From Desulfurococcales archaeon (lineage in GTDB: Archaea; Thermoproteota; Thermoprotei_A; Sulfolobales; NBVN01), in the NCBI GenBank assembly GCA_015521295.1, contig WAOL01000008.1, forward strand, positions 1 to 37,724: a DNA stretch of 37,724 nt, written 5' to 3'. The notes under the pieces were generated by a model. The model had not been told where the DNA came from, did not search any database, and worked only from the letters and a program-made list of their open reading frames with translations. Each line of letters begins with the position of its first letter. The stretch's first letter is position 1. Position numbers and translations under genes: made by a program. Below, one piece after another: positions 16,533-23,026 of the stretch.

Positions 16533-16642
16533 CCTTCTCGCTCACTCTACAGTATGTATGTCTGTAGAGTGTTTAAAACTGGCTGAGGGTAAGGAATAAG
16601 AATTTAAGATTAGTCTAACTTACCTTAGACGGGGGATACGAA

Positions 16643-18775
16643 ACGGGCGCTGCTAAGCAAGAGTGTGACATTATCGTAGCGTTAGTCGGAAACCCGAACG
16701 TCGGCAAATCCACGCTATTTAACGTACTTACTGGGGAGACAGCACATGTAGGCAACTGGCCCGGAGTGACGGTTGAGCTGAAGCTGGGTATGCGTGAGTA
16801 CGAGGGCAGGAGGGTATGCTTCGTTGACCTCCCTGGAACTTATGGAATCAGCGGCACTAGCCTCGAGGAGGTCGTCGCCCGGGAATTCATTGTTTCTAGC
16901 GAACCGGACATCGTTATGGTGCTCGTCGACTCCACAGCCCCTGAAAGGACGCTCTACTTGGCGATCCAGGTGTTGGAGTTAACACCGAATGTGGTACTGG
17001 TTTTCACGAAGACCGACGAGGCACACCCGAGGGGAATCCACATACATTACGATAAGTTGGAGGAGTACCTAGGCGTCCCGGTAATCCCCGTCTCCGCGCT
17101 TAAGGGTGAGGGCATTAGGGACCTTCTCGAGGCACTCCTCAATTATAAGTCCAGGATTAAGCGGTCGGAACCCCTTACAATCGATTACGGCCCGCTGGAA
17201 CACTTCATACGTGAAATAGCGTCATTAATTGAGGAAGAGGGAGCCCTTCGCCAGTACCCCTCGAGATGGATTGCTATTAGGTTGTTAGAGGGTGACATGC
17301 GTATTGAGGATCTGCTGAAGCAGGAAGGGAAGGAAGCCCTACTTAAGCGTGTGTGGAACATCATCGACTCAGCGAGGAGGGTCCTCGGCGGTGACCTCAC
17401 GGAGCTCGCGATAAGGCAGCGCTTTGCGTTCGTTGATTCCCTGATAAGGAGGGTCGTGGTTAGGACGAAGGTTGAGGGAGGAAGTAGCCTCGAGAAGGTA
17501 CTACGTAGGCCGTTAGCTGGCCTCCTATTCAGTACGGCACTAACGCTAGGTGTCTTCCTGCTCATATTCTCGATAAACACCGGCTTCCCGCTGAACATCC
17601 TGCTTGAATTGGCTGGACAGGAGGGCTTGGCAGAGGCTGTGAGTACGTACAGCTTAAGCGGGATAGTCAGCATGGGGTTCAACGAACTCTCATCACTGGC
17701 GGAGTCTGGGTTAAGTGCTGTGAACGCGCCTCACTGGTTCGTGTCTTTAGTGGCGAACGGCATCATACCGGGTGTTGGATCCGTGCTCAGCTTCTTCCCC
17801 CTCATACTCATGGTGTTCCTGTTCCTGGCGATGCTTGAGGATAGCGGATTAATGCCTAGGATGGCCGTGGCGTTCCACTCCACCTTATCTAAGTTCGGTC
17901 TTTCCGGGAGGGCTGTTTATCCGTTAGTCATAAGCGTGGGCTGTAACGTGCCGGGCGTCATGACTAGCCGAACATCACTCGACGATGTTGAGAGGCATGA
18001 GCTAATCTTTTCGGTTCCCTTCATTCCCTGCCAGGCTAGGTTAGTGGTTGGCTTGGCTTTCGCTATGGCTCTCTTCAAGAGTGCGGTCATGCAAGCGGTT
18101 GCCGTGGTATTCATCTATGCGTTAGGTGCTGCCGCCGCCCTACTAACAGCCATTATTATCCGTAAGGCTATATACGGTATTCGTGAGTCACCTGAACTCA
18201 TAATGGAGTTACCACCCATACATAAGCCTAAGGCTAAGGTAGTGTGGTGGCTAACGTGGGACAACACTAAACACTTCCTCCGTAAGGCCGGGTTGATAAT
18301 ATTCTCGCTAAGCATCGTTGTGTGGGCACTCCTCTACACGGGGCCTGAAGGGTACTTGCCTGACGTGTACGGAGAGAACTTCTTCCAGCACAGCTTCGCG
18401 GCAATCATAGGGAATGCTGTGGCCCCTGCCCTTACGCCTTTCGGTCTGAACTACACGCAGGCATGGAAAGTTGGGTTCGCGTTAGTGAACGGTCTCGTTG
18501 CAAAGGAAGTCGTGCTTGACAGCTTGTCCGTCCTGCATGGTGGCGCTAACCCGATAGCAGCCATTAGGGCGTTGGGACTCAATATTGCTCAAGGTCTCGG
18601 AATACTGGCGTTCATAACGCTTTATCTGCCCTGCTTAGCTACGCTCGCCGTCATGTATCAGGAGAGCAAGAGTTTGAGGAAGACCCTAATCTCCTTGATG
18701 TACATGATGGGGTTGGCGTACATTGTCGCATTACTTGTTTACTACATTACATCCGCCCTACTCACCCTCTTGTAA
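16643..18775 (+). CDS. feoB: Ferrous iron transporter FeoB, non-canonical start proposed (ACG 16643)
   Basis: GNPNVGKSTLFN P-loop (16688-16723), VGNWPGVTVE, DLPGTYG, membrane domain with GCNVPGVMTSRT. Frame open from 16619; the first ATG/GTG/TTG in frame is GTG 16766, downstream of the P-loop. Confidence 0.9.
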   Translation, partial: TGAAKQECDIIVALVGNPNVGKSTLFNVLTGETAHVGNWPGVTVELKLGMREYEGRRVCFVDLPGTYGISGTSLEEVVAREFIVSSEPDIVMVLVDSTAPERTLYLAIQVLELTPNVVLVFTKTDEAHPRGIHIHYDKLEEYLGVPVIPVSALKGEGIRDLLEALLNYKSRIKRSEPLTIDYGPLEHFIREIASLIEEEGALRQYPSRWIAIRLLEGDMRIEDLLKQEGKEALLKRVWNIIDSARRVLGGDLTELAIRQRFAFVDSLIRRVVVRTKVEGGSSLEKVLRRPLAGLLFSTALTLGVFLLIFSINTGFPLNILLELAGQEGLAEAVSTYSLSGIVSMGFNELSSLAESGLSAVNAPHWFVSLVANGIIPGVGSVLSFFPLILMVFLFLAMLEDSGLMPRMAVAFHSTLSKFGLSGRAVYPLVISVGCNVPGVMTSRTSLDDVERHELIFSVPFIPCQARLVVGLAFAMALFKSAVMQAVAVVFIYALGAAAALLTAIIIRKAIYGIRESPELIMELPPIHKPKAKVVWWLTWDNTKHFLRKAGLIIFSLSIVVWALLYTGPEGYLPDVYGENFFQHSFAAIIGNAVAPALTPFGLNYTQAWKVGFALVNGLVAKEVVLDSLSVLHGGANPIAAIRALGLNIAQGLGILAFITLYLPCLATLAVMYQESKSLRKTLISLMYMMGLAYIVALLVYYITSALLTLL

Positions 18776-18821: not shown

Positions 18822-18831
18822 ACTTAAAAGG
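18822..18831 (+). promoter_or_regulatory. Candidate TATA-like element upstream of aRF1
   Basis: cacttaaaag about 30 nt upstream of the GGTGAT Shine-Dalgarno at 18856. Confidence 0.3.
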
Positions 18832-18855
18832 GTGGCTAGTGAGACTATGAGATAG

Positions 18856-18861
18856 GGTGAT
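18856..18861 (+). promoter_or_regulatory. Shine-Dalgarno sequence for aRF1
   Basis: GGTGAT, complementary to the archaeal 16S 3' end (AUCACC), 5 nt before codon TTT 18867. Confidence 0.6.
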
Positions 18862-18866
18862 CGGCA

Positions 18867-19967
18867 TTTAGCGATAAGTTCAGGATATCGAAGAGCGAGC
18901 TGAAAAGGCTCTTGAGGGAGCTGAAGAAGTGGAATGCCCACGCAACCACGCTCCTGAGCCTCTACATACCTCCGGGCAGGCCGATCGCTGACGTAGTTAA
19001 CGTTCTGCGTCAAGAGCTGTCCATAACCGAGAACATAAAGCTGAAAGCAACCAGGAACAGAGTTCAGACAGCGTTGAAGGCAGCCATAGATAGGCTTGTT
19101 AAGATACCGAAGGTCCCTCCGAATGGCTTAGTAATATTTGCGGGAGAGCATGACGAAACCGGTGAGACCATAGCCCTAGTGTTCGAGCCTCCAGAGCCCA
19201 TTAAGGTATTCTTCTACAGGACCGACAAGTTCTTCCACACAGAGTTCCTTGAGGACATGGTTGCGGAGAACGACGTGTACGGCCTTATAGTGATTGAGAG
19301 AGATGAAGCAACAATAGGTCTGCTTAAGGGCAATGCCATAAGGGTTCTGGACGAGATCGAAGGCTACATACCGGGTAAGCACAGCCGAGGCGGGTGGTCT
19401 CAGAGGAGGTACGAGAGGATAATAGAGGAACTAACTAGGGACTTCTTCAAGAGTGTTGGGGAGAAAGCTACTAACCACTTCCTACCGCTCCTCCAAGACG
19501 GTAAGCTCAAGGGAGTAATCATTGGGGGTCCCGGTTATACTAAGCTAGACTTCATTAAGGGCGACTTCCTAGATTACAGACTCAAGCGCTTGGTGCTCCC
19601 CAAGACTATAGATGTAAGTGATCAAGGAGAGCCTGGGCTCAAGGAGCTGGTTATGAGGGCTGAGGACATGATAAAGCAACACATCTACATAAGAACCCAG
19701 AAGGCCCTTGAGGAATTCAACTACCACCTAGCCAAGGACGATGGCCTAGCGATCTATGGTGAGAAGGAAGTTATCGACGCCTTAAACCTCGGCGCCGTTA
19801 AACATATCATAATAACGGAGGATCACCCCAAGTTCGAGGAGATAGTTAAGCTTGCTGAAAAGAAAGGCGCTGAGGTCTACGTGCTCACCGATGAAGTACC
19901 AGACTACATGTGGATTAAGAAGACGTTCAACGGTCTAGTAGGTGTTCTCAGATATCAGATCTACTAG
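18867..19967 (+). CDS. prf1: Peptide chain release factor aRF1, start codon unclear (TTT 18867 proposed; first canonical is TTG 18912)
   Basis: LKKWNAHATTLLSLYIPPGRPIADVVNVLRQE...NIKLKATRNRVQTAL, KHSRGGWSQRRYERI (GGQ-loop equivalent GGWSQRR region), VIIGGPGYTKLDF. Confidence 0.9.
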   Translation, partial: FSDKFRISKSELKRLLRELKKWNAHATTLLSLYIPPGRPIADVVNVLRQELSITENIKLKATRNRVQTALKAAIDRLVKIPKVPPNGLVIFAGEHDETGETIALVFEPPEPIKVFFYRTDKFFHTEFLEDMVAENDVYGLIVIERDEATIGLLKGNAIRVLDEIEGYIPGKHSRGGWSQRRYERIIEELTRDFFKSVGEKATNHFLPLLQDGKLKGVIIGGPGYTKLDFIKGDFLDYRLKRLVLPKTIDVSDQGEPGLKELVMRAEDMIKQHIYIRTQKALEEFNYHLAKDDGLAIYGEKEVIDALNLGAVKHIIITEDHPKFEEIVKLAEKKGAEVYVLTDEVPDYMWIKKTFNGLVGVLRYQIY

Positions 19968-20089: not shown

Positions 20090-23026
20090 ATGGTCAGCAC
20101 TAAGGACACAAATAAGAAAGGAGCTAAGCTAAGGTCACCAATAGTTACCGTGCTAGGGCACGTGGACCATGGAAAGTGCCTTCACCCAGACGAGAAGGTA
20201 ATGTTAGCCAATGGCAGATTAGCCAAGATAAAGACGCTATTCGAGGGTGTCACAGAGGGCGACATCATTAATGCTGGGAACGGATACGAGTTCATTAAGA
20301 GAAAAAATGAGGTGACGACCCTCACCCCTCAAGCACGCGTGAGGCGCGGCAGGACGAGTAAAGTGTGGCGCGTTTGGTATGAAGGGTACCTATACGAGGT
20401 TACCCTAAGTGATGGAAGTAAGGTAAGGGTGACGCCAGAGCATCCGTTCCTGACTCTTGACGGATGGATTAGAGCGGAGGACATTACTGCGGATGACGCG
20501 GTCGCCGTAGCTACGAACGTACCCAACCCGGAGAACTCGTGGAGCATTCTGGCCCGCATTGCACGTCTAGCGGGGATTAAGGAAGGTTTAGGACGTGTCG
20601 GTAGGGCTGCTTGGCGTCGTGCATTCGAACTCGTGGGCCTCAGGTGCGCTGGCCGGGTAATCGACTCGTCACTTAACGACACTATTGAAGCGATAGCTGT
20701 CGCTAACGCTACATCGGAGGTGCTCGCGGCCGCACTGGGGCTTAAAGTGAGTACATCGGCTAAGCTCGCGGGGTGCGTACTCGCAACCAGTAAGGCGTGG
20801 GGCGATAGTGCATTCGTGCCTGCCTCAGTCCTTCAAGCCCCGAACACCTTGCTTGGAGACTTCATTCGCGGCTTAGTAAAGGGATCCGGGATCATAGACC
20901 CTGAGACGCCCGAGATCCTGATCCCCGTCCCGAGCTTTGAGGCTGGCGTGGAGGTTAAGTACGTCCTAGCCCGCTTAGGCGTGTTCTCCTCCGTCACCGA
21001 GTTAAGGACGCGCCACTACGTTAGGGTTGCTGGCGTGAGGGACGTTGACTTACTCGCTAGGAAGGCGGGATTGAGAATCGATGTTATTGGTGAGGGTAGC
21101 ATTGATGATGGCAGGATCCTCAAGCTAGGTGACGTGCAGTTCGTCAGCGTCAAGTCCATCCGCAGGATCCCATATAAGGGATACCTCTACGACCTCTCCG
21201 TACCGCCAACGCAATGCTTCATCGCCAATAACGTTGTAGTGCATAACACCACGCTCCTCGATAAGATACGTGGTACGGCAGTCGTTAAGAAGGAGCCTGG
21301 CGAAATGACCCAGCATGTCGGCGCATCAATGATTCCTGCCTCAGTGATAGAGAAGATTGTTGAACCGCTCAAGTCAATGTTCCCAATAAAGCTTAAGATC
21401 CCGGGCCTGCTCTTCATAGACACGCCTGGCCACGAGGCCTTCTCTAATCTAAGGAAGCGTGGAGGAAGCATAGCTGACTTCGCAATACTGGTCATCGATG
21501 TTATGGAAGGTGTTGAGAAGCAAACCATCGAAAGTATCCAGATACTCATGAGTAGGAAGGTCCCCTTCGTTGTTGCCGCTAACAAGATAGATAGGATCTA
21601 CGGGTGGAGGCCTCAGCCCGATCAACCCTTCCTCTTCTCAATGAGGCAGCAGAGCAAGAGGGCTTTAGAGGAGTTGGAACGGAGAATATATACCATCGCT
21701 GGTCAGCTCTCTAGCTTAGGTATCCCTGCCGAGAGGTTCGACAGGATCAGGGACTTCACGAAGGCAATAGCGATCGTGCCGGTCTCAGCCAAGACAGGGG
21801 AGGGTATCCCCGAGCTACTTGCCGTCTTAGCCGGCTTGACGCAGAAGTATTTAACGAAGAGGATACTGTTCACGGAGGGTCCGGCGAAGGGTGTTGTGCT
21901 AGAGGTTAAGGAAATACCTGGTCTGGGAACGTGCTTAGACGTTGTGATATATGACGGGATTCTGAGACGTGGCGACATAATAGTCGTGGGTGGAATGAAG
22001 GAACCTATAGTTACTAGGGTTAGGGCCCTCCTCATGCCAAGGCCCCTTGAAGAGATGAGAGCCGCTAGTGAATCGGCATTCAAGAACGTTGATGAGGTCG
22101 TGGCGGCGGCAGGCGTTAGGGTCAGCGCCCCTGGCCTTGAGGAGGCGATAGCTGGCGCGCCACTGTACGCGGTGGAGAGCGAGGAGAAGGTTAAGGAATA
22201 TGTTGAGAAGGTGAGAGAGGAAGTAACGCAGGTGAGGTTTTCCAAGGACATTAACGGCGTCATAGTTAAGGCTGATACCTTGGGCACGCTTGAGGCTGTC
22301 GTGGGCATGCTTGAGTCCAAAGGCATACCGGTTAGGCTAGCAGACGTAGGTCCCTTAACTAAGAGGGAAGTTATTGAGGCGTCAATAGTTGCGAAGCAGA
22401 ACAGGTACTACGGTGTAGCGCTCCTGTTTAATGTCAAGCCACTACCAGACGCCGAGGAACTCGCTAGAAAGGAGGGTGTGCGCATATTCCAGGACTCGAT
22501 AATCTACAGGTTAATCGAGACGTACGAGAACTGGGTGGCAAAGGAGAAGCAGAGGGAAGAATACTACGAACTCCTCAAAACGGTGTTCCCAGCTAAGTTC
22601 CAAGTGCTTCCCGGGTTCGTGTTCAGACGCAGTGACCCGGCTGTCGTCGGCATACGGGTGCTGGCGGGCGTGATTAGGCCTGGCTACCCGATAATGCGTG
22701 ACGATGGAAGGCCCCTTGGTAAGATATATCAGATCCAGAGCAAGGGTAGGAACCTAGATGAGGCGAAGGCTGGAAAGGAGGTCGCTATTTCAATTGAGGG
22801 CAATGTCTTAGTGGGCCGTCACTTCGATGAGGGCGACGTCCTCTACACCGACCCTAGCGAGAAGGATTTGGAGACCGTGTTAACTAAGTTCAGGAAGTAC
22901 GTGACTGAGGACATGCTACCCTTAATCGAGGAAATCATTAGGATTAAGAGGAAACGAGATAAGAGGTTCGGGCTACCCATACTCCTTAAGCTAAGGAGCT
23001 TGAAGAAGGAATTCAAGGGCAAGTAA
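20090..23026 (+). CDS. infB: Translation initiation factor aIF5B/IF2 containing an intein
   Basis: Extein: SPIVTVLGHVDHGK//TTLLDKIRGTAVVKKEPGEMTQHVGAS, DTPGHEAF, ANKIDR. ATG at MVSTKDTNKK. Confidence 0.96.
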   Translation: MVSTKDTNKKGAKLRSPIVTVLGHVDHGKCLHPDEKVMLANGRLAKIKTLFEGVTEGDIINAGNGYEFIKRKNEVTTLTPQARVRRGRTSKVWRVWYEGYLYEVTLSDGSKVRVTPEHPFLTLDGWIRAEDITADDAVAVATNVPNPENSWSILARIARLAGIKEGLGRVGRAAWRRAFELVGLRCAGRVIDSSLNDTIEAIAVANATSEVLAAALGLKVSTSAKLAGCVLATSKAWGDSAFVPASVLQAPNTLLGDFIRGLVKGSGIIDPETPEILIPVPSFEAGVEVKYVLARLGVFSSVTELRTRHYVRVAGVRDVDLLARKAGLRIDVIGEGSIDDGRILKLGDVQFVSVKSIRRIPYKGYLYDLSVPPTQCFIANNVVVHNTTLLDKIRGTAVVKKEPGEMTQHVGASMIPASVIEKIVEPLKSMFPIKLKIPGLLFIDTPGHEAFSNLRKRGGSIADFAILVIDVMEGVEKQTIESIQILMSRKVPFVVAANKIDRIYGWRPQPDQPFLFSMRQQSKRALEELERRIYTIAGQLSSLGIPAERFDRIRDFTKAIAIVPVSAKTGEGIPELLAVLAGLTQKYLTKRILFTEGPAKGVVLEVKEIPGLGTCLDVVIYDGILRRGDIIVVGGMKEPIVTRVRALLMPRPLEEMRAASESAFKNVDEVVAAAGVRVSAPGLEEAIAGAPLYAVESEEKVKEYVEKVREEVTQVRFSKDINGVIVKADTLGTLEAVVGMLESKGIPVRLADVGPLTKREVIEASIVAKQNRYYGVALLFNVKPLPDAEELARKEGVRIFQDSIIYRLIETYENWVAKEKQREEYYELLKTVFPAKFQVLPGFVFRRSDPAVVGIRVLAGVIRPGYPIMRDDGRPLGKIYQIQSKGRNLDEAKAGKEVAISIEGNVLVGRHFDEGDVLYTDPSEKDLETVLTKFRKYVTEDMLPLIEEIIRIKRKRDKRFGLPILLKLRSLKKEFKGK
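20177..21247 (+). mobile_element. In-frame intein (357 aa) in the aIF5B P-loop
   Basis: Begins with Cys (CLHPDEKVMLANG), block B VTPEHPFLTLDGW, ends CFIANNVVVHN, followed by Thr(+1). Removing it restores GHVDHGKTTLLDKIRG. Confidence 0.96.

Follow-up and report, generated by a model that had tools for sequence, protein, structure and literature searches.

A conserved layout at the 5′ end of archaeal aRF1 genes strongly implies a +1 frameshift, with autoregulation as its likely purpose

Sequence comparison strongly implies that the gene for the archaeal release factor aRF1 in the window, by which we mean the whole 37,724-nt stretch of DNA analysed here, is translated by way of a +1 frameshift. 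Autoregulation is the likely purpose: we put at roughly 80% the probability that the shift is programmed, that it takes place at a stop codon read by aRF1 itself and that it acts as negative feedback on the level of the release factor. The first-pass annotation had suggested an autoregulatory device on a termination factor by analogy with prfB, an idea that the comparisons below favour, the feedback itself being read from the layout.

The aRF1 reading frame occupies 18861–19967 on the forward strand and is preceded by an in-frame TGA at 18858–18860. From 18861 it reads TCG GCA TTT AGC GAT AAG and continues to CTC TTG, where the TTG at 18912 is its first ATG, GTG or TTG. The letters and coordinates reported earlier for this region (the TGA, GGTGAT at 18856–18861, 5 nt and then TTT at 18867–18869) are all right, as is the remark that the frame has no usable canonical start; the same is repeated in sister genomes, four of the same genus having TTT at the same place and either no canonical in-frame start or a later TTG only, so that neither chance nor a sequencing slip is a sufficient explanation. 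There is, however, a canonical start one frame away. A GTG at 18857–18859, inside GGTGAT, shares its frame with a TAG at 18869–18871, one base off the aRF1 frame. Because aRF1 is open only in +1, a ribosome starting at this GTG must shift by +1 at ATT-TAG-C to make aRF1. A gene with a truly non-canonical start would have no canonical start in any frame able to feed it, whereas here GTG 18857 would feed aRF1 via +1. The features of the locus are as follows.

18823–18830, forward strand: TATA-like box, CTTAAAAG, 26 nt upstream of GTG 18857.
18855–18862, forward strand: Shine–Dalgarno (SD)-like element, GGGTGATC, complementary to the 16S tail GATCACCT; it overlaps the GTG and ends 3 nt before the slip codon.
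18857–18871, forward strand: 0-frame leader minigene, GTG ATC GGC ATT TAG (M-I-G-I-stop), with start and stop frame conserved in relatives.
18866–18872, forward strand: proposed +1 shift site, ATT TAG C, with ATT in the P site, TAG in the A site and AGC (18870–18872) as the +1 codon.
18870–19967, forward strand: coding body of aRF1, read in +1; its product is predicted as MIGI|SDKFRISKSELKRLL..., with 369 amino acids.
18912–18914, forward strand: TTG, first canonical codon of the aRF1 frame, not accepted as its start (CTG in G001 and G004).
19389–19397, forward strand: GGC GGG TGG in the sequence, giving GGW in place of the catalytic GGQ.

The product matches the TIGR03676 profile at 406 bits, against a cut-off of 234.7, and is the only gene above cut-off in the genome; we take a second, weaker match to be pelota. 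The Pfam domains eRF1_1, eRF1_2 and eRF1_3 are all present, and by overall sequence and domains the protein is still an aRF1 despite its GGW, possibly with full release activity. A motif search for GGTGN6ATTTAGC finds it once in the whole genome. The neighbouring genes have peculiarities of their own. FeoB, upstream (16619–18775), has no ATG, GTG or TTG ahead of its P-loop GNPNVGKS, and a start at its first GTG (16766) would remove the P-loop; the FeoB of L039 likewise has no canonical start before the P-loop, and that of L032 has an ATG followed at once by a TGA in another frame. In aIF5B/IF-2, the next gene downstream, an intein (Intein_splicing Pfam domain, 20198–21247) lies in the P-loop GHVDHGK.

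We propose the following sequence of events. Translation of the aRF1 mRNA would begin at GTG 18857 and, after M-I-G-I, bring UAG into the A site while the P site holds the tRNA that decodes AUU. With aRF1 plentiful, termination at UAG would release the four-residue peptide. With aRF1 scarce, the ribosome would wait, and this slow A site would favour a slip of the P-site tRNA one base forward onto UUU, whereupon reading would restart at AGC in the +1 frame and yield full-length aRF1. By the rules of pairing, a tRNA moving from NTT to TTT should retain its second and third codon pairs, and a move from TTT to TTT would be perfect. That ribosomes shift here in cells, that they do so by P-site slippage and that the outcome depends on the level of aRF1 are steps we infer.

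To look for conservation, we compared the 5′ ends of aRF1 genes across 119 genomes belonging to the order and a further 40 that represent other orders in the phylum. The layout was counted in 91 loci of families f1, f2, f3, f4, f9, f10 and f11, with 68 loci (families f5–f8 and the other orders) serving as controls. In 83 of the 91 (43 genera and 7 of the order's 11 families), a stop follows 3–5 codons after a canonical start, and aRF1 is open in +1. The arrangement consists of the start, 1–3 codons, NTT (81 of 83), the 0-frame stop and then aRF1 in the +1 frame; starts within 12 nt lie in the 0 frame in 81 of the 83 and in the third frame in the other 2. The strict motif occurs in 5 of the 68 control loci, and its NTT form in none of these 68. 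Several of the genomes with the layout consist of a single contig, so it is not an assembly error.

The composition of the shift site is also constrained. The codon before the stop is ATT in 40 of the 83 loci, CTT in 22, TTT in 17, GTT in 2 and TAT in 2; the stop is TAG in 65, TGA in 17 and TAA in 1; and the +1 codon is AGC in 53, AGT in 12, GAC in 10, GAT in 5, GAG in 2 and AAT in 1. The resulting heptamers, in 81 of the 83, are ATTTAGC/T, CTTTGAC/T/G, CTTTAGC, TTTTAGC/T, GTTTAGC, ATTTGAT and ATTTAAT. Serine at the +1 codon is always AGY, although these genes use AGY for 49% of their serines, and outside g3 the slip bases are invariably TTT, although the same genes contain 440 TTC to 190 TTT. 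Selection therefore holds the 0-frame stop and the TTT, not merely the amino acid. In f11, apparently the Sulfolobaceae, 17 loci from 9 genera share an identical GATGAGTCTTT, whereas third positions downstream vary; the leader there is ATG AGT CTT TGA, and 10 of the 17 loci carry CTTTGAC, the consensus of the bacterial prfB shift site (PMC3711429). All three stop codons are in use, as fits aRF1, because aRF1 reads all three (PMC3521657); the 0-frame stop is thus one read by the encoded factor, and the GGW protein is assumed to read UAG, UGA and UAA likewise. Taken together, the comparison supports the layout, its conservation, selection for the 0-frame stop and the need for a +1 transition.

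The signals upstream are less uniform. An SD stimulator is important in prfB. With the 16S tail taken from the relatives G059, G048 and G020, as no 16S was found in the window's own metagenome-assembled genome (MAG), the SD-like element of the window forms a duplex of −13.4 kcal/mol, against −6.2 kcal/mol for shuffles, and the mean for f1 is −9.3 against −6.1 kcal/mol. Upstream of the shift site in f11 and f9, pairing is at chance, with no enrichment over shuffles; we therefore reject a universal SD stimulator, and such an element would be at most part of the story. The spacing from TATA box to transcription start is well established, and the TATA-like CTTAAAAG 26 nt before the GTG therefore places the transcription start close to the GTG; a TATA-like box appears by eye at about the same distance in most f1 relatives, and the aRF1 mRNA is probably leaderless or nearly so. 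In f11, an 8-nt GATNAGGG directly before the ATG is nearly invariant (L049, L059, L068, L073 and L075–L086; absent in L074), possibly a leader or promoter element.

Four other explanations deserve consideration. First, the frameshift may be real without being autoregulatory, occurring at a fixed ratio or being merely tolerated. Frameshift and in-frame states replace one another several times on the tree, so regulation is not essential; but a stop kept for so long in the one gene whose product reads stops, with all three stops allowed, looks like the requirement of a sensor, and we regard a shift without feedback as improbable.

Second, translation could initiate non-canonically at TTT 18867, or at ATT 18866, with the SD-like GGTGAT directing the ribosome and with no frameshift, much as the first-pass annotation had it when it read TTT as a weak start codon. 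GGTGAT does sit 5 nt upstream of TTT, TTT is conserved in nearly all loci, and FeoB in the same window also has no canonical start. Such initiation would nevertheless leave unexplained why 83 loci have a canonical ATG, GTG or TTG one frame away with a conserved 0-frame stop within 3–5 codons, why TAG, TGA and TAA replace one another while a stop is kept, and why TCN serine codons are missing, and the sequence upstream in f11 and f9 resembles an SD no more closely than shuffles do. Initiation at UUU is not known to be a conserved strategy. A TTT start thus seems slightly less credible even than an unregulated shift, and the TTT is better understood as the slip site.

Third, the minigene could be a regulatory upstream open reading frame, with aRF1 beginning downstream, at TTG 18912 or elsewhere, by reinitiation. 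That TTG exists, and L015, L024 and others have a TTG or GTG at similar distances, but the relatives share no downstream canonical start and several have none at all in frame before LLSLYIPPGRP. TTG 18912 itself was rejected as a start, being CTG in the sisters G001 and G004 and cutting off a conserved N-terminal stretch. That stretch is conserved as protein and aligns with the crystal sequence of Aeropyrum pernix aRF1 (3agk), so it is part of the aRF1 protein; the alignment runs from frame residue 4, SDKFRISKSELKRLL, rather than only from TTG 18912, the outcome that had been named beforehand as fatal to an upstream start. The aRF1 chain of S. acidocaldarius (8hku) covers domains II–III only and is silent on the N-terminus. 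We consider reinitiation very unlikely. Finally, a sequencing indel or transcriptional slippage in the T run is hardly credible, for although a one-base indel would mend the frame and f9 has up to five Ts, the same layout recurs across 83 loci, some of them from genomes in a single contig; just three Ts are present at most sites, and slippage requires no conserved 0-frame stop.

The +1 frameshift does not account for every locus. L015 and L024 (g10), with GGTG-N7-ATTTAGT and no in-frame start, do not fit the layout; in both, the GTG frame continues for some 14 codons to a TGA that overlaps a TTG of the aRF1 frame, perhaps allowing coupled initiation at the overlap. L111 (f4) has no canonical 0-frame start and L055 (f7) has neither the frameshift nor the in-frame layout; the model explains neither. 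In g3 (L011 and L012) the site is TAT TAG C, where a slipped tRNA would re-pair poorly, and L010, L028, L048 and L062 have the motif plus a nearby in-frame codon that could serve as a start. Families f5–f8, g28 and part of g10 manage without the frameshift layout, which is therefore dispensable. On a 70-row aRF1 tree, the frameshift and in-frame states require 6 changes, a count that does not fix their direction. It could reflect a gain early in the history of the order, after which f5, f7, f8, g28 and part of g10 went back to starting in frame. Within g10, the loci L016, L017 and L019 read GTG NNN NNA TTT AGY, so that their start is in frame and the MxxFS layout is kept, as expected if the frameshift was lost by a simple indel.

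A second change sets one clade apart. The catalytic GGQ is described as universally conserved, yet the window gene has GGW. So do all 26 full-length f1 genes of the tree outside g4, g6 and g7 (the window, L002–L024, L026 and L027), which form one clade of 9 genera; their TGG is constant and their glycine codons vary. GGQ is found in g4, g6, g7 and every other sampled family, and GGW requires a single change on the 70-row tree. In other organisms the GGQ glutamine is methylated by Mtq2. Full-length or near full-length Mtq2 matches (TIGR00537) occur in 28 of 33 GGQ genomes and, setting aside G012 and G016, in 0 of 26 GGW genomes, many of which are incomplete MAGs and all of one clade. The matches in G012 and G016 were discounted, their sequence being unlike the Mtq2 of G007, G009 and G032 and looking like another methyltransferase. 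The GGW clade thus appears to be without Mtq2, a pattern that losing the substrate residue would predict. A second GGW match in the phylum, a release-factor-like protein from a different family (L226, G387:C58:7400-9000), also has KKGGWSQMRYNR; it was rejected as an aRF1, which it does not resemble, and by eye it would fall near the VLRF1-like group.

Overall, we think it probable that a conserved autoregulatory +1 frameshift in aRF1 arose independently early in the order and was kept in most families, apparently including cultured species of the Sulfolobaceae type, and that one clade went on to replace GGQ by GGW and to lose Mtq2. GGW challenges the rule of a universal GGQ and, if this reading is right, a universal factor has had its regulation as well as its catalytic motif rebuilt in that clade. 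A conserved +1 shift in an essential universal gene would also be the first such case in archaea. Annotated aRF1 N-termini in the order are likely to be wrong, and the frameshift can be tested directly in Sulfolobus.

The frameshift is likely to be new. Our search for literature on frameshifting in aRF1, in the Sulfolobus release factor or in Thermoproteota, with preprints and most subscription papers outside its scope, found none. Reviews from 2016, 2021 and 2022 list a single programmed frameshift demonstrated in a cellular gene of archaea, the −1 shift of fucA1; for archaea they otherwise mention viral genes and possible cases in Mg-chelatase, and neither aRF1 nor any other release factor (PMC8211752, PMC5009743, PMC8915115). 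One published scan states that it missed shifts in prfB located within 50 nt of the start (PMC3711429).

Among known systems, several share single features with the aRF1 loci. In E. coli, infC uses an AUU start, and is likewise a translation factor controlled through an odd start; there the start codon itself is odd, whereas that of aRF1 is canonical and in another frame. Sulfolobus fucA1 (PMC8211752) is a cellular, crenarchaeal gene with a programmed frameshift, but it encodes a glycosidase, and its shift is −1, at an A-AAA-AAT heptamer, and not widely conserved. The class-I release factors of Mimivirus and Megavirus (R726 and mg280; PMC3521657) are of the eRF1/aRF1 type and undergo recoding that was proposed to be autoregulatory; they differ in being viral and in combining a frameshift with readthrough. 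According to the same paper, the eukaryotic and archaeal homologues of these factors have no autoregulatory recoding, a statement that the loci described here contradict for archaea.

The closest likeness is to bacterial prfB. Both genes encode a class-I release factor and have a 0-frame leader, a +1 direction and a stop read by the encoded factor; in both, NTT precedes the 0-frame stop (ATT TAG C here, NTT in 81 of 83) and the product lies in +1, which for aRF1 describes the layout. Ten f11 loci have CTT TGA C itself. Unlike prfB, the gene does not encode RF2, to which aRF1 is not homologous; its stop lies just 3–5 codons past the start, with TAG and ATT prevailing; an SD-like stimulator is found in part of the loci only; and since aRF1 reads all stops, any stop could serve. 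The aRF1 system therefore works like prfB without being a member of that family, and a feedback loop that evolved independently is the best explanation. If so, an unrelated release factor has converged on the same feedback logic, sometimes with the identical heptamer, and with all three stops because aRF1 is omnipotent.
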